Positions 4,379 through 20,849 of a stretch of 20,849 nucleotides of DNA are shown here, in pieces (the stretch's first letter is position 1; every line of letters starts with the position of its first letter). The DNA lies in the IMG/VR virus record IMGVR_UViG_3300027770_000301, positions 1 to 20,849 of that record, one strand, 5' to 3'. Origin of the DNA: a virus. The notes beneath the pieces are model-generated. The model saw only the letters and a program-made list of their open reading frames with translations. It was not told where the DNA came from and did no database searches. A program made the position numbers and the translations under genes.

Positions 4379-6924
4379 TGTCAGACATCACTAAAGGTTA
4401 TACGTTTAGCGATTCTAAGGCAGATTGGGCCTCTGAGAAGGATACGGCTTTGCGTCTCAACAAGATGGTTGATGATGCCAAGGTTAATCTTGTCGCTGGA
4501 ACCAACGTCACTATTAGCCGTGGGTCTAATGGAATCACCATTAACTCTACTGGTAGTGGCGGTGGTGGAGATGTAGTTGGACCTTCATCTTCCGTTAATG
4601 ACAAAGTTGTATTCTTTAACGGAACAACCGGAAAGCTAATTAAAGATAGTGGTTTATCACTTAGCGGCAGCAATACTGGCGATCAGACAATCTCTCTAAC
4701 GGGCGACGTGACGGGTAGTGGAAATGGATCGTTTGTAACATCCATTGCAGCAGGAGTTATAGTAAACGCCGATATTAACGCAAGTGCGGCCATTGTGGAC
4801 ACTAAACTTGCAACGATTTCAACAGCCTCAAAGGTTTCCAATAGTGCAACCACGGCAACATCGGCAAATACTGCCTCTGCGATTGTCGCTCGCGATGCAT
4901 CTGGAAACTTCTCTGCCGGGACAATTACGGCAAATCTCACTGGCAATGTTAGCGGCTCATCTGGCTCAACGACGGGCAATGCGGCAACTGTAACTACTAA
5001 TGCAAATTTAACCGGAGATGTTACTAGCGTTGGAAACGCCACAACTATTGCATCTGGTGTTGTAAGCAATGCAAAACTAGCAGATGTAGCGACATCAACA
5101 TTTAAGGGTCGTACAACCGCAGGAACTGGCTCTCCAGAGGACTTAACATCCACTCAAGCTACTGCACTCCTTAATGCTTTTAGTTCTACGCTAAAAGGAC
5201 TTGCTCCAGCATCTGGTGGTGGAGCAAGCAATTTTCTTAGGGCAGATGGAACTTGGACTACTCCTACTGGTGGTGGAACCGTAACGAGTGTTTCCGGCAC
5301 TGGAACAGTTAATGGAATTTCGCTTACCGGAACCGTTACTTCTACTGGAAGCTTAACGCTGGGAGGAACACTTAGTGGGGTTAGTTTAGCTTCTCAGGTT
5401 ACAGGCAATTTGCCTGTAACAAACTTAAACTCGGGAACATCTGCTAGTGCATCAACATTTTGGCGTGGAGATGGAACTTGGGCCACACCCACTGGTGGTT
5501 CTGGTACTGTTACATCGGTTTCGGTTACTACCGCAAACGGTGTTTCTGGAACCGTAGCCAATGCAACCACAACCCCAGCAATCACTCTTTCACTTGGGGA
5601 CATTAGTGCTGCAACATCAAAGCCTAGTGCCACTGGGTCTTCTCTTCGCAGTTTTGCTGCGCGTGAAGGAGACGTATTTAATGTTAAGGATTTTGGTGCA
5701 GTCGGAAACAATTCAACTGATGATTATGCAGCATTTTTAGCCGCAATCACTGCTCAACAAGCTGCAACTCTTGGTGCTGTTGTTTATGTTCCTAGCGGGA
5801 TATATATATTAAATACAAGATTGGTTATCTCAAATTCTAGACCATTGGTTATTATTGGCGATGGTCAATCTTCTCGTATCTCTGCGGCAGGGGCTAACGG
5901 CTTTTTGAAGGCTACATCAAGCGCAAGCTTTGCAAATCATGAGTTTCGGGATTTGCGTATCAGTTGCAGTGTAGCCAACTCTACGGCCATAGAGACCATT
6001 GGATCGCCCACCACGTCAAGCCACGAGCAGAAGCAGCTTTATGTGCACAATGTGGTGTTTGATTATGGCACCGTTGCTTCATGGGCAAAGTGCTTGCTGG
6101 TGACAGCCGCCAACAATGGTGTTATTAGTGACTGCGTATTTCGCGGAACGACCTCGGGCAGTAATGGAACCGGAAAAGGGATTGAACTTTTTGGATTTAC
6201 GGTAAACCTAGCCATCACAAACTGTTCATTCTTTGCATGGGAATATGGCATCTACTGTCCGAGTTATCAGGAAGGTCTTTTTGTGACAGGTTGCTTTATA
6301 ATCCAAGTTAAATTTGGGGTATATTATGCATCTAATGATGCATCTATTTTGACGGCTGGTTCTTTTGTGACTGGTTCGTGGTATCAGATCGAGACATCTG
6401 GAACCACAAATTTCACGTTAATTGGTGCGGCAAATAACTCGGTGGGCACGGTCTTTCAGGCCACAGGTCCCGGATCAAACACAGGCACGGCAAGTGGGCT
6501 GCGTAGCACTCAGCTCATCATGAATTCAACGCACATCGACGCCCGTGGCAGCGGCAGTGCAGCGTTGTGGGCCTCCAACGCAGCAAATGTTCTCGTCTCT
6601 GGGTGCTACTTTATTTGCGACGGTGGCACATACACTGTCTATTTGGAGCGTTGCTTTGAGTCGGCCTTTACAGGAAATATGATTTATGGCGCAACGACTT
6701 ATGGCATCTACCTCGCCAACGGCCCAAGCAGTTTAAGCTGCATTGCAGTCTCAATCTACGGGAATGCATTTCGTGGGCCAACGACCGACATCTACGCAGA
6801 TACAAATGCTGTTATGATTCGCGCACAGGGTAATGTTAAAGCTCCAAGCAGCAATACATCAATGACCGTTACATACATTTCATCCGGTGGGCGTACGGCG
6901 GATAATGACATTCAGACAACTTAA
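4378..6924 (+). CDS. Tailspike/tail fibre with pectate-lyase-like beta-helix domain
   Basis: An 848-residue protein. Residues 1-36 ([11 protein letters not shown]...NKMVDDAK) look like a virion-anchoring segment also seen in the gene at 6964. Residues about 37-430 are low-complexity Ser/Thr/Gly/Ala fibre sequence with two imperfect LTGDVT...GN repeats and two DGTWxTPTGG repeats. From about residue 432, [20 protein letters not shown] is the classical start of the pectate-lyase-3/tailspike right-handed beta-helix, which binds or cleaves host surface polysaccharide. Catalytic residues cannot be assigned. Residues about 656-704 hold an inserted small module ([20 protein letters not shown]). Codon use becomes GC-richer from about 5950. 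Start overlaps the previous stop by one base. Confidence 0.85.
5245..5274 (+). repeat. Direct repeat in tailspike fibre region, copy 1 (copy 2 at 5470-5499)
   Basis: Thirty bases encoding [10 protein letters not shown] recur at 5470-5499 as [10 protein letters not shown], with a few mostly third-position changes. The block is a standard tail-fibre repeat and is followed both times by a (G)TVTSVS segment, so a longer unit of roughly 225 bases is imperfectly repeated. Confidence 0.8.
5398..5420. repeat. Perfect 10-bp inverted repeat inside the tailspike gene
   Basis: GTTACAGGCA at 5398-5407 and TGCCTGTAAC at 5411-5420 are exact reverse complements separated by ATT. It encodes VTGNLPVT, part of a fibre motif (xVTGxLPVxN) common in phage tail proteins, so the palindrome may partly reflect protein sequence. 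There is no T-run after it, so it is not an obvious terminator. Confidence 0.7.
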
Positions 6925-8702: not shown

Positions 8703-10205
8703 ATGGCTATTGCAACTGGCAGTCAAATTAGACCTGAACTATCGGCTGTTGATTACACGCCGTTCTTGCAAGCGTCTGGACAAGCTGCTCAGATGCAAGT
8801 AGCCGGAACTCAAGCAATCGCCAAGGGGCTTGAGGAAGTGATGAATAAAGTCGGTAAAGCCGTTAATGAACGCAAGGCACAGAACGAAGGCGTTGCGCTT
8901 ATCAAAACTCTTTACCCAGATATTGATGACAAGACGGCTCGTTTCGGACTAAAAGCGGCTGGTGGAGCACCGGCATTTATCAAGCTTAAAACTGATTTTG
9001 ACCAATATAAGAAGATCACTACTGACCGGAGTAAGTCTGCTGAGTATGGTCAAAAGCTCTTGGAAAACAAAGGAGCTGCTCCATCTGGAGAATATACCAA
9101 TGAGCAAGTTATTGGTGGCACAAATATCTATCTTGATTTCTTGAAGTCTCAGGGTAGCCTTTCAAAAATGGGGGCAGAAACTGTAAACATTACTGAACGA
9201 TCTAATGCCCTCAAAGCCGAAACTGCTGCAAAAATTAAAGATGAAACAATCATTTCTGCTCTTATAAAGGAATTTACAGCAGATGAAGGAATTCCTTCTG
9301 GTCTGCGCAATCCAAATAGGCCAAAGGTTGATCCACAAAGTTTACTTATTAATGCTGCTCAACGGGGTATTAGCACCGATGGACTTGGCAAAGTTTCTCA
9401 ACTTGCAGGCGCACTTACACGCACCCGTGAAGCTGGATTTGATAATCCAGAAGATGCGGCTTCCTCTATTAAAGAAAATACTCTTCCAGTTGGTTATGTA
9501 GTGATTCCAGAGCAAGATAAGAAAACTGGCAAATGGTTTGCCAATCCAACGCAGGGTGCTGCACTTAAAAGTCTTTCGTCTGATTATACATTGGTTCGCG
9601 ATCCAAAAACGGGAATTTCAACAGCCAAAGCAATTCCCGGTAGTTCGGCAGACATTAAACTTGATGATAAGGTAAAGAAAGAAAAAGAATCAACGGAGAC
9701 ATATAATTATCATATATCCTCAGACCGAGATAATGTTCTTCGTGCATTGTGGTTGTTAAATCATGGAGCGAATACGGGAACCCTTGCATTGACCGGAATG
9801 ATTGGGCCACTATCTGGTACAAGAACACAACAATATGTAAGGCTTGTTGATTCAGTTAGGAATGCAGTTGGAATTAATTCTTTGATGGAACTTAAACGTT
9901 CATCACCAACCGGAGGTGGTCCACTCGGAACGACCTCTGATAAAGATTTTTCCGCTGTTATCAATTCTTCTGCTCCTTATTATGCAACCGATAAAGAAGA
10001 GAATGTTCGTGATGGACTATTAAAGACTCTATCACTTTATAACAATCTTGCATCAAAAGAAGGTGGTATTGGTCGCCTTGAATATAATGATTACGAAAAG
10101 CAAATAATGCAAAGTAATTTAAAGAAAAAGCAGATTTCTGGAGAAATTCCAGCATCATCTTCTACGGATTTTTTTAATATGTATTATAACGGAAATAAAA
10201 AATAA
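8703..10205 (+). CDS. Probable internal virion protein, 500 aa
   Basis: A helical protein that starts with a likely capsid-directing segment (LSAVDYTPFLQASGQAAQMQ) followed by a long amphipathic helix (LEEVMNKVGKAVNERKAQNE). The remainder is soluble, mixed helical and polar, with no catalytic motif I recognise. N-termini of this 'DYTPFLQASGQAAQMQ...GI/L...' kind are usual in phage proteins that follow tail genes and precede the largest virion protein. It starts 11 bases after the previous stop and its TAA overlaps the next ATG (TAATG). An ejection or core role is inferred from size, order and composition. Confidence 0.55.
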   Translation: MAIATGSQIRPELSAVDYTPFLQASGQAAQMQVAGTQAIAKGLEEVMNKVGKAVNERKAQNEGVALIKTLYPDIDDKTARFGLKAAGGAPAFIKLKTDFDQYKKITTDRSKSAEYGQKLLENKGAAPSGEYTNEQVIGGTNIYLDFLKSQGSLSKMGAETVNITERSNALKAETAAKIKDETIISALIKEFTADEGIPSGLRNPNRPKVDPQSLLINAAQRGISTDGLGKVSQLAGALTRTREAGFDNPEDAASSIKENTLPVGYVVIPEQDKKTGKWFANPTQGAALKSLSSDYTLVRDPKTGISTAKAIPGSSADIKLDDKVKKEKESTETYNYHISSDRDNVLRALWLLNHGANTGTLALTGMIGPLSGTRTQQYVRLVDSVRNAVGINSLMELKRSSPTGGGPLGTTSDKDFSAVINSSAPYYATDKEENVRDGLLKTLSLYNNLASKEGGIGRLEYNDYEKQIMQSNLKKKQISGEIPASSSTDFFNMYYNGNKK

Positions 10206-13200
10206 TGGCACCCACAGACCAAGAAATTAGCGACAACGTATCTAAGCTTTCCAAATCTGGGGCACCAGATGAGGTTATTTCTAAATATGTGGATATGGCG
10301 CGTTCTGAGCAAACAGCTAATGTTGGTCGTAAAGGATTTTCACCAGAACAACTTACTAGTTTTATTACTGGAAGTAGTAGTATTTCAAATGATAAACAAC
10401 AAAGTGGCAATGTTTCAACAACTACTGGTTTAACTGAAGATCAATATGGTCGTCGTCAACAGACTGCAGAAGCATCGTTGCAGGCACTAGAACGTGATTT
10501 TGGAGATGTTTCTGGTTCTCTTATTGAAGTTGGTGTTCCAATTGCTGTAACCGTAGCCACTGGAGGAATGGGACTTCCCGCTGCAATTGCGTTAAGAGCG
10601 GCATCTGGTGCTCTGGGAACCGCTGGTCGTCGATTCCTTCAAGGAGAAGAAGTATTTTCCAGCAGGGGCATTGGTCAAATTGTTGAGAGCAGTGTGCTTG
10701 CTGGTGCTCCAATTCCTGCGTTTGGAAGAGGAATTAAAGAAGTTTCCAAAGCGGGTTTAACTCTTGGTGGAATATCTACTGGAGCATCTGTTTCTGGACA
10801 ACTAACTGAGCGTTCCCTTAGAACTGAAAAAGAGCAAAAATCAATTGATGATCGTCTTGCATCTATTGAAAGCAGTGAGGGTGCGGTTATTGCTTCAAAT
10901 GCTCTTAAATCAGGATTTACTGGATTTGGATTTGGTGTTGGACTTCATGCTCTTTCTTCTGCATTTGGAAAGCTAGCATCTAATCGTTCAGAAATAGATG
11001 CATCGCGTCGTTATTTTGAAGAAGCTGGAGTCAATCCTACATTTGGAATGCTAATTCCAGAACGTGCCGGACTTGAGAAAGAAGTTGCAAAGAGTCGCCC
11101 GGAACTTGCCGCTCGCATTGATTCTGCACCAAGTTCTGTTTTCAAGTCTTTCTGGACTAGGCTTGGTGATGTTCCCGATAATGCATCAATGCGTGATCGT
11201 TTCGCAAAGATTGTTCCACTTGTTGATGATGCGGAAAATCTTGTAATGGAAGCACGTTCGCGAACAAAACAGTCGCTGGATTCACTAAATCAGCTAAAGG
11301 GTAGTGACGTTATTGATCCTATTGTTCTTCAAAAAGCAGAGGCAGATCATGCCGCAAAAATGCTTGAGGAACTATCTATTGGTGCATCTGCTGATGGAAA
11401 GATTGCAAAGTTAATGGGTGATTCTGTTGGCCCTACTGAACACGCAAATATTGTAACCAATCTCCTTAATAGTTTAAATAAAAATGTTAGTGAAATAACA
11501 GGAATTTTATACAAGAAAACTGGTCTATCTACAGATACGGCGGTTATTCCAAGAGATAGGATTGTTTCTGTTGCCGAAAAACAACTAGGTAAGATCGGGG
11601 CAATTGATACTGCTTATGGCAAATCCATTATGGATGCGGTTCGCGGTGAGTCTGCCGAGCTTACTCCTGCTCAAAAACAGATTTCTGCAATGTTTGGCGA
11701 TGTTCAGGATTCCGTTTCTTGGTCGCAATATCAAGAGCTTAGATACAAAATGTCGTCTCGTTTTGGGAATATCAACCCCGGTCAACTTGATGCCGCAGAG
11801 GCTGCGGCAAGCAAAGTCTATCGCGCAATTGGCGATGAATTGATGAGTCACTTTGAAAAGACACCAAGTCTTAAGTCTGCTGCTGCTCCACTGCGTACCG
11901 CAATGGATTTCTATAGAGATATTTCTCACATTAGAGACAGCAATATTGGACGTGAATTATTTAATATCCCAATATTTGTTGATCCATCTAGTCCACAGTT
12001 TAGGATTTCTGGTGTAAAAGCATCGTCACTTGATTCAATTGCTGAATCACTTCGCAATGGCGATACAGATACACTTAACAATCTTTATGCGATGGTTTCG
12101 CGTGTATCAAAGTATTCTCCAGAAGTTGGACAGTCGCTCGTAGGTGCTGTTCATGCTTCGATGCGTGATAACTTCCTTCGCAAGAATATTGGAAATCCAG
12201 TTGGGGTCATTGATGATTTGTTGTATACGGCAAGAACTGCCGATATGATTCCATTTGTTGAATCGCTTGGATTTGGAAATATTGGACGTATTAAACAAAT
12301 GAAAGAGGGTTTTAAACCCTATAAATCTTCTGAAATTACCAGCGATGTAATTGATTCTGTTTTGACCAATCCAGATGTTCCAAATGCTATTCCTCGTGCA
12401 ATATTTGATTCTCGCGTAAAACAGGCGGCTCTTCTTGATGCGATTAATGATAAAGCTGGTGCGCGAAAGAAACTATCTGAAGCAGTTTCTGTTGCTGATA
12501 AAGCAAAATTAGATGAAGCTGATGCTGTAAAATTGTTTGATAAATACAGCAGCGATGACTTGATTGGTGCGTTTTCTGGACTTGGCAAGTATACTATGAC
12601 GGCAGAAGCTGGTATTACTGGTCGTGGAACAATTAGTCATTTGCTTCAACAGATGCCGCAGGAGGTTGCATCTAAAGCAATGGATCATCTTAGAAAAAAT
12701 GATTCAAATCTTGCGGACATGGTATCTAGAAAAATTTGGTCAGATGAAATGAAATCCGCTGTTCGTACTGAACGTTATATTCCCGGTGAGTCTAGTTCTT
12801 TTGATTTGGCTACATTTGGTCGCATTTTTAATCCAAAATCCCCAAGTGATGTTCAGCGGTTCAAATGGTTGAGTACTGTTGCTGGTTCAGCAATGACCGA
12901 CGACATGAAGAAGTTTCTTGGTTCTGTAGCTAAAGTTGAAGATAGTCTTCGTAAGGGTGGTTATGTCGGAGAGGCTAATGTTGAAAAACTATCTACTGCC
13001 GCAAACATAATTGGTGCATCCGGTGTTCCACTCGGCAATCTTGGACCGCTTGGTTTAACTGCATTGACTCGTCGTGTAGCTCGTGCGGCACGCGGTGGTT
13101 ATTATGATTTCTTGGTTTATGTTGCTACAGACAACAATTTTGCCAGAAAAATTGCAGCATCTAACGATATTGTTAATGCTTTAAAACAAGAGCCAATGCA

Positions 13201-13285
13201 AAGAGCCTATCTCTATTATTCCAATGGAACGTTGATGAAAGATTTGGCAAAGCTTTCACAAGAAGAAAGTCGAGGAAGTCGTTAG
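10205..13285 (+). CDS. Large internal virion/ejection-like protein, 1026 aa
   Basis: The largest gene. The N-terminus (TDQEISDNVSKLSKSGAPDE) is a short helical repeat with a flexible linker to about residue 90. Residues about 107-145 are hydrophobic and Gly/Ala-rich (GVPIAVTVATGGMGLPAAIA), with further hydrophobic patches near 183-200 and 230-250, which could insert in membranes. The rest is long helical sequence without recognisable enzyme motifs; no lytic transglycosylase signature is seen. Being last of three large helical proteins after the tail genes, it fits the injected core proteins of podoviruses. Codons are AT-ending throughout. It ends the + strand arm, 6 bases from the opposing gene. 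Confidence 0.55.
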   Translation: MAPTDQEISDNVSKLSKSGAPDEVISKYVDMARSEQTANVGRKGFSPEQLTSFITGSSSISNDKQQSGNVSTTTGLTEDQYGRRQQTAEASLQALERDFGDVSGSLIEVGVPIAVTVATGGMGLPAAIALRAASGALGTAGRRFLQGEEVFSSRGIGQIVESSVLAGAPIPAFGRGIKEVSKAGLTLGGISTGASVSGQLTERSLRTEKEQKSIDDRLASIESSEGAVIASNALKSGFTGFGFGVGLHALSSAFGKLASNRSEIDASRRYFEEAGVNPTFGMLIPERAGLEKEVAKSRPELAARIDSAPSSVFKSFWTRLGDVPDNASMRDRFAKIVPLVDDAENLVMEARSRTKQSLDSLNQLKGSDVIDPIVLQKAEADHAAKMLEELSIGASADGKIAKLMGDSVGPTEHANIVTNLLNSLNKNVSEITGILYKKTGLSTDTAVIPRDRIVSVAEKQLGKIGAIDTAYGKSIMDAVRGESAELTPAQKQISAMFGDVQDSVSWSQYQELRYKMSSRFGNINPGQLDAAEAAASKVYRAIGDELMSHFEKTPSLKSAAAPLRTAMDFYRDISHIRDSNIGRELFNIPIFVDPSSPQFRISGVKASSLDSIAESLRNGDTDTLNNLYAMVSRVSKYSPEVGQSLVGAVHASMRDNFLRKNIGNPVGVIDDLLYTARTADMIPFVESLGFGNIGRIKQMKEGFKPYKSSEITSDVIDSVLTNPDVPNAIPRAIFDSRVKQAALLDAINDKAGARKKLSEAVSVADKAKLDEADAVKLFDKYSSDDLIGAFSGLGKYTMTAEAGITGRGTISHLLQQMPQEVASKAMDHLRKNDSNLADMVSRKIWSDEMKSAVRTERYIPGESSSFDLATFGRIFNPKSPSDVQRFKWLSTVAGSAMTDDMKKFLGSVAKVEDSLRKGGYVGEANVEKLSTAANIIGASGVPLGNLGPLGLTALTRRVARAARGGYYDFLVYVATDNNFARKIAASNDIVNALKQEPMQRAYLYYSNGTLMKDLAKLSQEESRGSR

Positions 13286-15865: not shown

Positions 15866-17206
15866 TTATGAATGAACGATTGACTCAAACGATGTGATGG
15901 GACGATTGAACATCATCCCGACTCTATCCTGTCCCTCTCCTCGCCCCTTGGCTTGGATTGCATTTACAAAGATACGCCTAACTGCTCCGTCGTTTAGGTC
16001 TTGGGTACTACCATCGGGCGTATTTGTAGGTGCGTCAAGGAAAATAACGCGGTCTGCGTCTTGCTCGATGTTTCCTGACTCGCGCAAGTCGGACAGCATA
16101 GGCTCACGATTTTCCCGTTCCACACTGCGACTAATCTGGGCAAGTAGGACAATGGGGATGCCGCACTCAATTGCTGCATCCTTAATGGCCATAGTCATAC
16201 GCCCAATCGCCACGTCTCGGGTTTCCCCTCTGTCCTGCTGTGGGTCGTAGCGTTGCAAGTAGTCGATGACAATGCCCTTAATTGGCTTAATCTGATGGAA
16301 TGCCTTAATGCGAGCCGTAAGCTGCGCCAACGTCCTGTCTCTATCATAAATGTGAATCCTCTTATTTGCCTGCACTTCCTTGACGGACTCAATGAACGTA
16401 GCGGAGTCTGCCGAAATTAGCTCGTTGCGACGAAACTCACGCCAACTACTACCGCTAAGGCTCTGGGCAAAGAGCTGGGGAAGGCCACAGACTGGCATTT
16501 CCCTTGAGAATAGCAGCACATCCCCTGCTTTCTGGCTCCAATGCCATGCAATCTGCCTTCCTGCGCTAGATTTGCCTCTGCCGGGACGGGCCGCAAGGAC
16601 GATTAGTTCCCCCGGTTGCGCTGGGCCAAAGCGTTTATTCCAGTCCGGCCAAGGCCAAGGCAAGCCGCGATCCACTTCTGTGTCTTCTCCCGCAAGAATA
16701 CGCTGGCAAAGGTCAAAAACATCAGTAGCAGCCGACGATAGCGTTTCTTGTTTCTGGCTCGCATGACGGATGGATAGGATACGGGAAGTTGCTGCCACGA
16801 AGTCTTCCACGTTGCCCTTGTAGCCGTAAGCGCATTCCCGCACTTCGTTGGCGCATTTGATGAGTTCCCGCAACACGTAGGTTTCCCGCACTTGCTCAAG
16901 CCAGTGGGAAAAACCAGCCGTAGTGGGGATACTACCGGAAACACTGACGATGTGGTCAACACCGATTGAGTCAAGTTTGTCGATTTTGCGGAGTTCATCT
17001 ATTACAATTGCTGTTTCTATTGGTCTGCCGTGATTGTGGTTCCAAATGATTGCACGCCAAAGCTTGGCGTTCTTTGGTTCGTAAAAGCACGCTTCTGTAA
17101 TCTTTGAGTCAAGTGCGGTGACAAGTGCTGCCGCTCCGTCTAGCAAGACACAGCTAATGACGTTGCGCTCGGCTTCATCTGAGTGTGGCAAATCGCGTTC
17201 AATCAT
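15866..17206 (-). CDS. dnaB: DnaB-family replicative DNA helicase, 446 aa
   Basis: The N-terminal domain starts with PHSDEAERNVISCVLLDGAA, as in DnaB. The RecA-like domain contains Walker A AARPGRGKSS (205-214), the H1a glutamate in FSREMP (233-238), Walker B GIVIDYLQR (311-319), and the H4 region LAQISRSVERENREP with LRESGNIEQDADRV (374-387). It should unwind the replication fork as a hexamer. Length is near that of bacterial DnaB (about 450-470). The start is ATG 17206 with AAGGAGG four bases upstream and an ATGA overlap with the nuclease gene. No primase domain or separate primase is visible in the window. Confidence 0.95.
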   Translation of the reverse strand: MIERDLPHSDEAERNVISCVLLDGAAALVTALDSKITEACFYEPKNAKLWRAIIWNHNHGRPIETAIVIDELRKIDKLDSIGVDHIVSVSGSIPTTAGFSHWLEQVRETYVLRELIKCANEVRECAYGYKGNVEDFVAATSRILSIRHASQKQETLSSAATDVFDLCQRILAGEDTEVDRGLPWPWPDWNKRFGPAQPGELIVLAARPGRGKSSAGRQIAWHWSQKAGDVLLFSREMPVCGLPQLFAQSLSGSSWREFRRNELISADSATFIESVKEVQANKRIHIYDRDRTLAQLTARIKAFHQIKPIKGIVIDYLQRYDPQQDRGETRDVAIGRMTMAIKDAAIECGIPIVLLAQISRSVERENREPMLSDLRESGNIEQDADRVIFLDAPTNTPDGSTQDLNDGAVRRIFVNAIQAKGRGEGQDRVGMMFNRPITSFESIVHS

Positions 17207-18030
17207 ACGACCTCCTTCGTGCGAGGATCGTAGTTATTCTGCAATCGCCATAGCGTCAGGCAGGCAAGAAAGCCCTCCCATTGCTTTGCAAGCTCGGCGG
17301 AATCATACTTAACAACGTCAACACGGCCAATCTCGGTGGTGGAGATGTAGAGGTTGATTCCTTCGTGATTCGGCTGGAAGTGCGGCTTATCCTTGATGCC
17401 CCAGCAAGCGTAGTGATAGGCTGCAATCTGCATACACTGTCCCTGCCTTACCTCAATCTTCTTGGTGGGCTTGGTTTTGGTGGACTTGAAGTCTAGAACG
17501 CCAGCTACATCGCCCTTAACGTAGGAAACATCCATCTGTCCAGCGTAGCCATGAGATGAGCAAGTGACTACCTTTTCGGTTTCAACAATGTTAATTCCGA
17601 GTTCTTCTAGTTTCGCCAATGCTGGATCAACGAGTTCCTTAAGCTCTACTTTATTGCCGTCAGCCAACTCAACCGTTTCGTTTTCCCATTGTTGGCATCC
17701 TAATGCGGACTCAATCGCCGCATGAATCTTCACCCCGAGGTCTGCTGCCGCTCCTGCTACCTTATTGGATTCTGCTCGGATTTCAGCGTAAAGCTTATCA
17801 GCATCCATATCCCCATAAGCAAATGGAAAAGCATATTTAAGTGCCGATTCAATTGTTATGTCTTGCTTCCAGCGATCAAGACCGGGATTCGCCATCATCT
17901 TCGTAATCCCACTGACCGATGGGAGCAAACCCATGATCCGTGCGTCCGCTACCGTCGTGTCCCGCTCGGCAACTGTCTTGCCGGGAACTCTGTGCATTGC
18001 TTGTCCGTTTTTCGTGTACCAGTGACTCAT
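17203..18030 (-). CDS. PD-(D/E)XK (RecB/Cas4-like) nuclease, 275 aa
   Basis: The order of motifs matches RecB/Cas4-type phage exonucleases: GVKIHAAIE (H103), acidic residues in VETEKVV (about 150-152), GQMDVSYV (D167), VLDFKSTK (D180, K182) and QCMQIAAYHYAC (Q201, Y205). D180-x-K182 with D167 forms the metal centre. It lies two to four genes from an ERF annealing protein and an SSB-like protein, so it probably resects double-stranded ends for ERF, as the lambda exonuclease does for Red beta. There is no Shine-Dalgarno before ATG 18030 (upstream is A-rich), so translation probably depends on coupling with the preceding small gene, whose stop is not at the expected place. Confidence 0.85.
   Translation of the reverse strand: MSHWYTKNGQAMHRVPGKTVAERDTTVADARIMGLLPSVSGITKMMANPGLDRWKQDITIESALKYAFPFAYGDMDADKLYAEIRAESNKVAGAAADLGVKIHAAIESALGCQQWENETVELADGNKVELKELVDPALAKLEELGINIVETEKVVTCSSHGYAGQMDVSYVKGDVAGVLDFKSTKTKPTKKIEVRQGQCMQIAAYHYACWGIKDKPHFQPNHEGINLYISTTEIGRVDVVKYDSAELAKQWEGFLACLTLWRLQNNYDPRTKEVV
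17211..17217 (-). promoter_or_regulatory. Strong ribosome binding site of the helicase gene
   Basis: AAGGAGG on the minus strand, four bases before ATG 17206. It lies inside the last codons of the nuclease gene and shows that the host uses a canonical anti-Shine-Dalgarno. Confidence 0.8.
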
Positions 18031-18435: not shown

Positions 18436-18708
18436 TCAGAAGGGAACGTCTTCGCTGGTCACTGGCTTCGGCTCCGCTTTGTTGAAGGCTGGCTTACTGT
18501 TGCCGCCAATCACCTTGCCGTTGCCAAGGATTGCGCCCTTGGTTCCCGCTGCACGGGCTTCCTTGGTTACGCCTTGGACTACTCGGTAGTCGTTCCCGTA
18601 CTTATCCTCTGGCGTCTCAAAGAGCACTACGTCAAGGTAGGTGCCTTTGGCCCCCTTGTAGAGCAATGCCTTGTCAATTTTCGTTACGTCGATTTTTACT
18701 GTAATCAT
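18436..18708 (-). CDS. Small protein with SSB-like acidic C-terminus, 90 aa
   Basis: The protein starts with beta strands (ITVKIDVTKIDKALLY, GTYLDVVLFETPED, YRVVQGVTKEAR) and ends with a proline/lysine-rich linker and SEDVPF. The final acidic-hydrophobic tip resembles the D-D-I-P-F tail by which SSB proteins recruit partners. It is shorter than normal SSB (about 110-180 residues), so a compact single-stranded DNA-binding protein is an inference. It is coupled to the ERF gene by an ATGA overlap, and an SSB-like partner beside an annealing protein is a usual phage arrangement. A strong hairpin follows it. Confidence 0.7.
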   Translation of the reverse strand: MITVKIDVTKIDKALLYKGAKGTYLDVVLFETPEDKYGNDYRVVQGVTKEARAAGTKGAILGNGKVIGGNSKPAFNKAEPKPVTSEDVPF

Positions 18709-19247
18709 GTTAGTTTGTTGATGATGATGTTCGCTTGACTCTGACTGAGCTTAGTTAGATCAGAAGCCTTGAAGTAGCTCAAGGCTTTTTCGATCATGTC
18801 CTTGTTTTTCTCTGCGTTGGTTTGAATGGCAACAAGTTGTGCCTTTGTGATTGCCGGGTCTTTTGCGGATTCGCCGTCGTCGTCCTCCTGCGTGATGGAG
18901 CAGATGGCTGCGAGTGAATAGCGGCGTAGATAGGTGACGGCAGAGCCTACGCCCTGTGCGTCCTGCTTGGTGAGTGGCGCAGATGCCATATCCTCAATAA
19001 ACTCTCCGCTTTCGTGCAGGAGGCGAGTGCTTACGCAGATCGTTCCGGCACCCACTTCACCCACGGTTTGGATGATGACGATGCCGTTTTCATTCAACGC
19101 TTCCTTCACGGCTTCAATAACCGATTCAAGATTGGCATACTTGCTTTTGAAGTGAGGATTGGTCGCTTGTTTCTTAGCGTTTCCCACTGTTTTTTGAGCT
19201 GCCAGCAAAGCTGGTGCGAGTTTTGTTAATGTTTCTGATGTTTTCAT
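18705..19247 (-). CDS. erf: ERF-family single-strand annealing recombinase, 180 aa
   Basis: The ERF signature is clear: NPHFKSKYANLESVIEAVKE (30-49), LNENGI, and AQGVGSAVTYLRRYSLAAIC then QEDDD (about 97-124). ERF proteins, such as P22 Erf, anneal complementary single strands during phage recombination and circularisation. The start is ATG 19247, which overlaps the preceding gene's TGA (ATGA) and gives the expected N-terminus MKTSETLTKLAPALLAAQK; a start at 19283 would add 12 unlike residues. The C-terminal 50 residues are a helical tail. It is followed by the SSB-like gene through another ATGA overlap. Confidence 0.92.
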   Translation of the reverse strand: MKTSETLTKLAPALLAAQKTVGNAKKQATNPHFKSKYANLESVIEAVKEALNENGIVIIQTVGEVGAGTICVSTRLLHESGEFIEDMASAPLTKQDAQGVGSAVTYLRRYSLAAICSITQEDDDGESAKDPAITKAQLVAIQTNAEKNKDMIEKALSYFKASDLTKLSQSQANIIINKLT

Positions 19248-19528
19248 GTTGTTTGTCTGGCTAAAATCCCTCTTCCAAAGCAACCGTGATAGTGCTTAAT
19301 TTTGTGTGCCGTGGTCGTGGATATACCATGATCCTTGGCGGCTTGAATGAGTGTCTTTCCGCGCTGAAGTTCGCTACGAACCTTAATCACTACCTCGTCA
19401 CTCACCCTTGGTTTATATGCGTAATCTTTTTCCGGCTTTATTTTAGTTTGAACCGATAGGTCAATCTTCTTGAGATGTTTGTTGAACATAAACCTCACCG
19501 ACTCCATTGTGGCAGTTATATCAATCAT
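19244..19528 (-). CDS. Helix-turn-helix DNA-binding protein, 94 aa
   Basis: Residues about 42-78 (VSDEVVIKVRSELQRGKTLI, then QAAKDHGISTTTAHKIK) form a classical helix-turn-helix of the resolvase/transposase-like or 'HTH_23/28' sort: A-A-x-x-x-G-I-S at the turn and T-x-H-x-I-K in the recognition helix. The basic N-terminal extension is unassigned. It overlaps the preceding small gene by 8 bases and is coupled to the ERF gene by ATGA. A role as local transcription regulator of the recombination genes is the natural inference. The opposing frame at 19507 is a shadow. Confidence 0.7.
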   Translation of the reverse strand: MIDITATMESVRFMFNKHLKKIDLSVQTKIKPEKDYAYKPRVSDEVVIKVRSELQRGKTLIQAAKDHGISTTTAHKIKHYHGCFGRGILARQTT

Positions 19529-19661
19529 GTTTCAATAGAATCTCCTTAGCGGTTTCGACTGCTAATTCCTGCTCCGAGCAAGTCGGGGCTGGAAAGCGAG
19601 CAAGTAATTCTTTGATGCAATCCAACGCTTCTTTAATATCTGTTTTCATCGTGTTCATCAT
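19521..19661 (-). CDS. Small helical hypothetical protein, 46 aa
   Basis: ATG at 19661 directly follows the previous TGA with no gap; in-frame ATGs at 19658 and 19649 are alternative starts. The product is two helices around a short Pro-rich turn: DIKEALDCIKELLARFPAP and QELAVETAKEILLKHD. This helix-turn-helix hairpin shape resembles small phage proteins of unknown role. It overlaps the following HTH gene by 8 bases. Confidence 0.5.
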   Translation of the reverse strand: MMNTMKTDIKEALDCIKELLARFPAPTCSEQELAVETAKEILLKHD

Positions 19662-19862
19662 TCAGTTTTGTTTTACTTCTTCAATGTTTTTCTCGGTGTT
19701 TCTCAAAATAAATCCGAGAACGGCTCGGATTGTCCTGAGTTCTCTGGCGGTGAGTTCGCCGCAAATTAGCGACAGTTGCGCGTTGCTTGCGCCAGAAAGC
19801 TTCTCGGCCCGTGCGTGCGCTACGTCTGGCTGACAGGTGGGCGTGGTTTCTTCCGTGCTCAT
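19662..19862 (-). CDS. Small helical protein, 66 aa, with MST start like its upstream neighbour
   Basis: ATG 19862 overlaps the upstream TGA (ATGA), with GGAGG nearby. The N-terminus MSTEETTPTCQPD is polar; the rest is helical and leucine-rich (NAQLSLICGELTARELRTIR). The bases around its start (GGAGGGCGCGAAATGAGCAC) resemble the two start cassettes upstream at 20368 and 20774. Base composition is GC-rich in its first half and more mixed at its end. Family not recognised. Confidence 0.55.
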   Translation of the reverse strand: MSTEETTPTCQPDVAHARAEKLSGASNAQLSLICGELTARELRTIRAVLGFILRNTEKNIEEVKQN

Positions 19863-20611
19863 TTCGCGCCCTCCGTTGCGGCGAGAGCTGCGTCTGCTTT
19901 ATCCATCGCCTGCTTCCACTCTTCTTCTCGCGTGTAAAGCGGAGCACCGTTCTGCTCGTCTCTCAAATTCTCCAACGCCTCCCGCAGCACGCGCACCTTC
20001 TCGCGCTCGGTGGCGAGTTCGGCGCGGAGCTGCCGCACCTCAAATGCCGTTGGCTCGTCGCACGCCTCACAGGCTTTTTGTGCGGCGCGGAGGGTGGCGT
20101 TCTCGGCGCGAAGTTCGCGCTCGACCTCGCACACCCGCTGATAAATCGCATCGGTCCGCTCTGCCTCGGCCTTTTCGCGCTCTAGTCTATGGCTCACATT
20201 ACGGTCGCGCTCGGCGGTGAGGGCGGTGAGTTCGCGTTCAAGCGTCGCGCACTCGTCGCGCATTTGGTTGGCAGCGTTACCTCTGCCTGAAAGAAATGTA
20301 TTTGCGTCGAAGGTTTGCGCCCAAGCGTAGTCGGTGCGAGGTGTTGGTGTGGGTGTGGGTGTGCTCATTGCGCGTCCTTCTTTCATAAAGATTGTTCCAC
20401 GCCTGATGTCTCCAAGCAAGCAATCATATGCATTAAATGCTCCTCTGGCATTTTCTCTTTCACGGCCATGACGCATCAAATCATTCATTAACAGATGATT
20501 TAGATCGCGTAGATGCTTTAGCCATTTGACCAATTTTACTTGATCAATCTCGTACATTGTATCGGCGGGGTAAACCAGTTGGTCTTCCCATTTTTGTGTG
20601 TATTGGAACAT
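19859..20611 (-). CDS. 250-aa frame: AT-rich helical 81-aa head fused in frame to a GC-rich coiled-coil protein (169 aa)
   Basis: The frame opens at ATG 20611 and runs to TGA 19859. Residues 1-81 (MFQYTQKWEDQLVYPADTMY..., HLLMNDLMRHGRE) are coded with AT-rich codons. From residue 82, MSTPTPTPTPRTDYAW begins a GC-rich part: a long Ala/Glu/Arg coiled coil (RELTALTAERDRN, VRQLRAELATEREKVRVLRE) with CEACDE in the middle and an ending (KADAALAATEGAK) common in phage coiled-coil proteins. GAAGGA lies 6 bases before the internal ATG at 20368, so the second part is very likely made on its own (19859-20368), and the first may be a separate gene that lost its stop. Confidence 0.6.
   Translation of the reverse strand: MFQYTQKWEDQLVYPADTMYEIDQVKLVKWLKHLRDLNHLLMNDLMRHGRERENARGAFNAYDCLLGDIRRGTIFMKEGRAMSTPTPTPTPRTDYAWAQTFDANTFLSGRGNAANQMRDECATLERELTALTAERDRNVSHRLEREKAEAERTDAIYQRVCEVERELRAENATLRAAQKACEACDEPTAFEVRQLRAELATEREKVRVLREALENLRDEQNGAPLYTREEEWKQAMDKADAALAATEGAK
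20331..20369 (-). repeat. Start cassette direct repeat, copy 1
   Basis: These 39 bases match 20737-20775 at 37 positions. They encode the N-terminus MS(T/A)PTPTPTPRT of two different proteins and are preceded in both by AAGGA(G) and a C/G-rich spacer. The inner part is a tandem CCCACA repeat. Confidence 0.9.
20375..20380 (-). promoter_or_regulatory. Internal ribosome binding site for the MSTPTPTP start at 20368
   Basis: GAAGGA on the minus strand, six bases before ATG 20368, inside the 250-residue frame. It is as good as the sites of neighbouring genes and supports independent initiation of the 169-residue coiled-coil protein. Confidence 0.65.
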
Positions 20612-20624
20612 ATTTATTCTTTTG

Positions 20625-20774
20625 TTAACCAGTTGTGAAACGCGCGGCGGTGAGGGCGGTGATGAGGCACACTGGGCACGCAGCCCGCTGCTGGTCGTTG
20701 TGGTGCGTGCAGGTGTAGGTTCCGGTGAACGTGATTTCGGTGCGAGGTGTGGGTGTGGGTGTGGGTGCGCTCAT
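20625..20774 (-). CDS. 49-aa peptide with zinc-ribbon-like CxxH/CxxC, MSAPTPTPTPRT start
   Basis: ATG 20774 overlaps the upstream gene's TGA (ATGA) and has AAGGAG eight bases upstream. After the MSAPTPTPTPRT leader, the body reads TYTCTHHNDQQRAACPVC, giving C22-x2-H25 and C33-x2-C36 with 7 residues between, a compact zinc-ligand arrangement. A hydrophobic helix (LITALTAARF) follows. It could be a small zinc-binding regulator or anti-host peptide; the family is not recognised. The frame was too short for automatic listing, and the longer open frame in this place (reading THTHTHT) is a shadow of the CCCACA repeat. Confidence 0.6.
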   Translation of the reverse strand: MSAPTPTPTPRTEITFTGTYTCTHHNDQQRAACPVCLITALTAARFTTG

Positions 20775-20775
20775 T
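20737..20775 (-). repeat. Start cassette direct repeat, copy 2
   Basis: Matches 20331-20369 at 37 of 39 positions by direct comparison. Same orientation, 406 bases apart. Here it starts the 49-residue CxxH/CxxC peptide. Confidence 0.9.
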
Positions 20776-20848
20776 TGCGGGCTCCTTGCTGCTCAAGCTC
20801 GTTTGCAATGCGGGAAAGCTGATTGGCGATGCGGTCGCGGTTATAATT
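20771..20848 (-). CDS. C-terminal end of an unidentified protein (partial)
   Basis: The last 25 codons of a gene entering from the right edge: NYNRDRIANQLSRIANELEQ then QGARK and TGA at 20773-20771. It is an amphipathic helix of the kind found at the ends of small phage helical proteins. Its stop lies in an ATGA overlap with the 49-residue peptide, and its last codons contain that gene's ribosome site. Nothing more can be said without the upstream sequence. Confidence 0.5.
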   Translation of the reverse strand, partial: NYNRDRIANQLSRIANELEQQGARK

Positions 20849-20849
20849 C

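Follow-up and report, generated by a model that had tools for sequence, protein, structure and literature searches.

A repeated coding junction in the small-gene arrays of uncultured phages and its probable part in gene reshuffling

Several uncultured phages appear, on comparison of their genomes, to use one short joint, here called the seam, that ends one gene, bears a ribosome signal and starts the next. It is present in a 20,849-nucleotide stretch of viral DNA (the window; positions 1 to 20,849 of IMG/VR record IMGVR_UViG_3300027770_000301), together with a repeated leader that follows many seams. The likely explanation is an array of translationally coupled cassettes that is reshuffled by homology at its repeated seams. 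The repeat is established, as are the presence of the seam before many gene bodies, the near-identity of array pieces despite diverged capsid proteins and the position of several joints at the seam or the leader.

The window is identical over its full length to part of IMGVR_UViG_3300009161_000012 (G001, 37,189 bp), which extends past the window end (window position = 29867 minus the G001 coordinate). Small genes form an array on its minus strand, next to genes for Erf, exonuclease and DnaB; this would be the end of a phage array in which small genes are joined by copies of a single coding seam. The order in G001 is genes of 91, 71 and 169 aa, a 270-aa gene starting MNTPTPRT, a 73-aa TM-like gene, a 49-aa peptide, a 250-codon frame, a 66-aa gene and a 46-aa gene, beyond which lie HTH-like, Erf, exonuclease and DnaB genes. 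The gene for the Erf-like single-stranded DNA annealing protein (18705–19283, minus strand; PHROG 2324, E=6.9e-46) is downstream of the array on the same strand. The exonuclease (17203–18030, minus strand; PHROG 298, E=2.6e-22) is a possible Erf partner, and the DnaB-like helicase (15866–17206, minus strand; PHROG 19, E=1.2e-65) is at best ~30% identical to those of the top-ranked cultured phages. The array genes are probably early genes. Elsewhere in the window, a 1026-aa protein (10205–13285, plus strand) matched no PHROG at E ≤ 0.1. At L104, a 315-aa protein (5134–6081; PHROG 1221, unknown function, E=1.4e-44) is encoded upstream of the array, and 5' of its gene is a low-complexity region (4460–4790) of repeated cttggcc and cttaagag units.

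The canonical seam has the consensus A(A/C)GGAGG(A/G)CGCGAAATGA. In the frame of the upstream gene it encodes the C-terminal tail (K/T)E(D/G)AK-stop, and its GGAGG is a Shine-Dalgarno (SD) sequence that lies inside the coding end of the upstream gene. Its ATGA is the next start overlapping the upstream stop by 4 nt, so that canonical seams have the same-strand stop/start overlap that defines ATGA coupled pairs. With this overlap and the SD inside the coding end, coupling of translation between each gene and its predecessor is expected; in the cases described in PMC6728339, ATGA overlaps can couple translation by termination-reinitiation. Many post-seam genes begin M(S/N)TPTPRTD, and many cassettes appear to be composed of a TP(R/E)TD(A) leader, a variable head and a coiled coil.

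The seam is widespread. A first set of loci contained 45 distinct junctions before many bodies (reversed-pattern control, 0; slightly looser pattern). Among 30 whole contigs there were 36 seam matches in 20, confined to a single strand per contig (control, 0), and in G027 six successive genes are chained by seams with 4-nt overlaps. In a scan of the viral-contig collection, at least 120 stretches carried the seam, compared with 15 for a scrambled-spacer control that kept the SD and ATGA. The matches listed comprised 121 distinct contexts; the 111 with an ORF of at least 40 aa fell into 47 clusters by body sequence, the largest a coiled-coil cluster of 45 members; because the collection scans selected on the seam, its conservation among their matches is built in, and some single matches are probably due to chance. 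Where found on these contigs, terminases were 32–41% and capsid proteins 33–34% identical to those of G001 (same virus excluded). In a second contig set (L127, L168, L172, L180, L187, L197) the same seam occurs with short TM-like proteins (MKLSPFWYAVG..., MNQLAEAFLAGLF...) and with a small Cys-containing protein (MSFTILGYRVRYYWRK...), and the upstream genes differ. Larger proteins of 265–278 aa, beginning MKTSFHWYDKDG..., MNIETNEHYHA... or MISESNEVYHA..., lie behind seam-like junctions in L063 (near 3931, minus strand), L056 and L082; the MKTSFHWYDKDG... protein is 38% identical to the exonuclease of the window.

The seam could instead be a favoured host ribosome site, reached independently many times. 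GGAGG at short spacing and ATGA overlaps are indeed common in translation as far as described in PMC6728339, but the non-SD spacer CGCGAA is conserved, its scrambled form is much rarer, and identity often continues across the seam into the adjoining coding sequence. This origin is improbable, and pure convergence on a good ribosome site is disfavoured by the spacer control.

The two leader copies of the window lie on the minus strand at 20331–20369 (copy A; ATG and MSTPTPTPTPRTD codons) and 20737–20775 (copy B; ATG and MSAPTPTPTPRTE codons), with their ATGs at 20368–20366 and 20774–20772. The initial annotation had described 39-base copies that differ at two bases and place a shared leader, with a ribosome site nearby, on two proteins. 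Pairwise comparison within the window bears this out: 37 of 39 bases are identical, compared with a best ungapped 39-nt self-match of 28 in dinucleotide shuffles of 18801–20849 (n=100), both copies encode MS(T/A)PTPTPTPRT(D/E), and the purine-rich sites GAAGGA and AAGGAG stand directly 5' of the leader ATGs. A third relative, claimed at 19862, holds for the junction (ACGGAGGGCGCGAAATGAGC; repeat D19, 83%) but not for the leader. A search with the full MS(T/A)PTPTPTPRT pattern returned matches from the same virus only. The codon variant CCT (ACACCTCGCACCGA) is present in both window copies and in 0 of 29 other contigs searched, so that a local duplication or conversion probably also connects the two.

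One leader may have been duplicated in tandem, or converted, recently in this genome, and this might by itself account for both window copies. The shared ACACCTCGCACCGA variant, the 37/39 identity and several partial CTHH-head copies in the array are in its favor. It is insufficient as a whole account, since the same leader and seam precede other bodies in many contigs and the TM cassette with its leader is shared, at 94% identity, with a phage that has 46% identity in its capsid protein. We regard this plain form as possible but not the expected one; the residue of a tandem duplication, suggested earlier, is probably part of the history of the two window copies but does not describe the system as a whole.

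The genes of the window carry their own record of rearrangement. The seam before the 49-aa gene (20771–20791, minus strand) consists of AAGGAG and an ATGA that overlaps the stop of an upstream TM gene (QQGARK*) that has its 5' part outside the window (L003:4513-4734). The 49-aa CxxH/CxxC peptide (20625–20774, minus strand), a truncated paralogue of the CTHH-head proteins, is, by comparison with its relatives, a truncated chimera: it tracks its paralogues through VCL(V/I)TALTA and then becomes the sequence preceding the MFQYT gene in G004. At the chimeric joint (20640–20646, minus strand; GCGCG in common), the CTHH gene is cut and joined to sequence 5' of the MFQYT gene, as read from G001, G002 and G004. 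The MFQYT gene body (20369–20611, minus strand) is in frame here with leader copy A, and in G004 it is a separate gene with its own stop, ending FMKNRS-stop. The fusion joint (20366–20389, minus strand) is a variant seam, TATGAAAGAAGGACGCGCAATG, that is one base longer than usual, so that the MFQYT frame enters leader copy A without a stop. The joint sits within a TATGAAGAA stretch that the MFQYT tail shares with the seam of a relative.

As a result of this fusion, the ATG at 20368 is internal to a 250-codon open frame starting at 20611. The protein of 169 aa predicted from the internal ATG (19859–20368, minus strand) consists of the leader, an AWAxTF head and an ALTAERD coil. Its AlphaFold model has long helices, one from residue 22, and a leader that is not helical (pTM 0.46), and is uninformative on function; no solved structures were found for these proteins. 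The 250-codon frame ends in a canonical seam, ACGGAGGGCGCGAAATGA (19859–19876, minus strand), in which its TEGAK* overlaps the ATG of the 66-aa gene MSTEETTPTCQPD... (19662–19862, minus strand). The latter thus has the same seam and a different body, and its homologues stand behind other upstream genes in G018, G010 and L147. The two leader proteins of the window, previously taken to be unrelated, share more than their N-termini. Both comprise the leader, a head and then a common LTALTA(ER) segment (repeat D2; LTALTAER codons at 20208–20229 and, in the 49-aa gene, 20641–20662, both minus strand), and G002, a close relative, encodes the CxxH/CxxC head together with the coil of the other protein in a single polypeptide (L009:1575-2060). 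The two bodies are thus mosaic relatives.

The initial annotation had proposed a search of other viral contigs. Leader and junction precede many bodies there, and the leader is not confined to the two window genes. The pattern MxxPTPRTD was found in 70 stretches and 35 first-ATG ORFs of at least 50 aa, compared with 42 and 5 for a permuted peptide; 25 leader ORFs carried a LERE-type motif, compared with 0 for the permuted peptide. In 15 leader genes chosen on leader, SD and overlap, with spacer and flanks not among the selection criteria, information was 0.6–1.7 bits at −20 to +29 and ~0.1–0.2 bits outside. Within the leader codons, third positions averaged ~0.8 bit compared with ~1.8 at first and second positions, and this greater variability indicates that the leader peptide itself is constrained. 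Leader and seam do not always occur together: some leader genes are without a seam, and 29 of 50 have no strong SD. The seam-scan matches listed also include a sibling of the leader, MSDTPETDA...ARKLERERDEAR. The PTPRTD proteins matched no Pfam or NCBIfam model above its curated cut-off, and no PHROG matched below E=0.007; for the PETDA siblings, searches of Pfam and PHROGs gave no Pfam match and a best PHROG E of 0.13. Protein and DNA searches of a cultured-phage collection gave no convincing match, where the BLAST low-complexity filter may hide some. The two matches of the leader pattern in genome contigs look like chance. The PTPRTD leader and coil proteins thus appear to lie outside the families described in Pfam, PHROGs and NCBIfam.

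Conservation of the peptide also admits a reading in which the leader is simply the conserved N-terminus of a duplicated and diverged PTPRTD...LEREL family and the junction has no special role. The peptide is conserved across contigs while third codon positions vary (~0.8 vs ~1.8 bits), and it accompanies LERE motifs in the seamless phages L051, L066 and L043. This reading is nevertheless rather unlikely, as the seam also stands before leaderless bodies (MSTEETT, MSAVFWMGF, YWREY, MSCKICG and MKLSPFW), which suggests that seam and leader are inherited separately, and as the spacer outnumbers, by a factor of at least 8, a scrambled version that keeps the SD and overlap. The earlier notion of a 'start module' on different proteins is upheld insofar as leader and junction precede many bodies, and has to be amended in that the unit is not a start only but includes the end of the previous gene.

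Comparison between phages provides the evidence for exchange. Capsid proteins are 40–47% identical, yet pieces of the array are ~89–99% identical in DNA, and some of these pieces end at the seam or the leader. Relative to G001, the capsid proteins of G021, G028 and G018 are 46–47% identical. The TM cassette with both its junctions is 94.4% identical over 286 nt between G021 and G001; the ~94% identity continues across the TM gene, the seam and the leader, and directly after the leader the bodies of the two diverge. G028 shares with G001 a 216-nt block from the seam to the second leader (leader-to-leader, 94.9%), and G018 matches G001 at 98.6% over 69 nt that extend from the seam into the 66-aa gene. 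In the close relative G002, backbone blocks are 86.3% (1,082 nt adjoining the array), 95.0% (6,520 nt), 96.2%, 97.7% and 98.4% identical to G001. Its array is rearranged, with the TM and MFQYT genes absent at the site and the CTHH head joined to the coil. All of these data are metagenome assemblies, in which chimeras are possible.

Shared blocks end at a seam of both partners in 21 of 180 cases, compared with 5.4 (SD 2.6) expected from random rotations, a count to be read with the reservation that a local alignment may end at conserved sequence even if no recombination took place at that point. When contact with a seam in either partner is counted, there is no enrichment (43 observed, 57 expected), which indicates that most exchange ends lie elsewhere, mainly in bodies, and that seams are one of several kinds of joint. 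An autonomous mobile element or an integron-like, site-specific cassette system would likewise set different bodies behind the same repeated joint in arrays confined to one strand. It would not readily account for many exchange ends inside bodies or for the lack of a constant boundary at base resolution, and no integrase was found among the genes scanned near the array; such a system is very improbable. Of the suggestion that the unit is mobile or recombinogenic, the second part agrees with the switch of bodies just past the leader between G001 and G021. Autonomous mobility is not needed for the pattern, since recombination between repeats is enough.

Under the preferred explanation, recombination would take place between copies of the seam, of the leader and of some coil segments, which are repeated within and between phage genomes. 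The Erf-like protein is a candidate recombinase for the shuffling, most likely by annealing together with the phage's own exonuclease. The Erf of phage D3 recombines diverged sequences efficiently, and Erf-type recombinases use short or diverged homology (PMC3945230). Bodies would be gained, lost and swapped while each junction retains a ribosome site and a start, and the resulting diversity may be of benefit. A further proposal is that this uncultured lineage keeps open-ended arrays in which the coding seam is both coupler and recombination homology, so that a joined body is expressed at once, and in which the TP(R/E)TD leader is an N-terminal tag for a common partner; in this full form it is speculative and we would not expect it to hold.

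The described systems most like it are the Start-Associated Sequences (SAS) of Cluster K mycobacteriophages and the PeSLs of T4-type phages. Like the seam, Cluster K SAS/ESAS are short repeats with an SD core that stand before many gene starts and, with few exceptions, share one orientation (PMC3203893). The SAS, however, is a 13-bp sequence, GGGATAGGAGCCC, immediately 5' of the starts, and lies mostly in gaps of >50 bp, whereas the seam has a different consensus, A(A/C)GGAGGRCGCGAAATGA, is coding with a 4-nt stop/start overlap in its canonical form, and in many cases has a shared leader peptide after it. The seam thus departs from the definition of an SAS in both sequence and position. In the account of PeSL cassettes given in PMC4503421, repeated regulatory sequences are reported to mediate gene shuffling in T4-type phages (Arbiol 2010; Comeau 2014). 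By that account PeSLs resemble the seam in being repeats tied to shuffling between related phages, and differ in being promoter-terminator motifs, with an early promoter and a stem-loop terminator, rather than a translational junction within coding sequence. Work on relaxed homologous recombination by Rad52-like phage recombinases describes mosaic exchange on short or diverged homology, and the phage studied here has an Erf-like gene beside its array; that work concerned exchanges between lambdoid phages and prophages and assays in lambda (PMC3945230), whereas here the substrate would be a repeated gene seam and the action of Erf is presumed. ATGA termination-reinitiation pairs share the four-base stop/start overlap of the seam, but as treated in PMC6728339 they are a general property of gene pairs, while here one near-constant sequence is reused between many genes.

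Stop, ribosome site and start all lie within the very joint that is duplicated and recombined, which suggests that these phages may change their small genes rapidly without breaking expression. Gene gain in hypervariable phage regions thereby becomes testable at base resolution, and the seam and leader together provide a sequence handle by which such arrays may be recognized in metagenomes.
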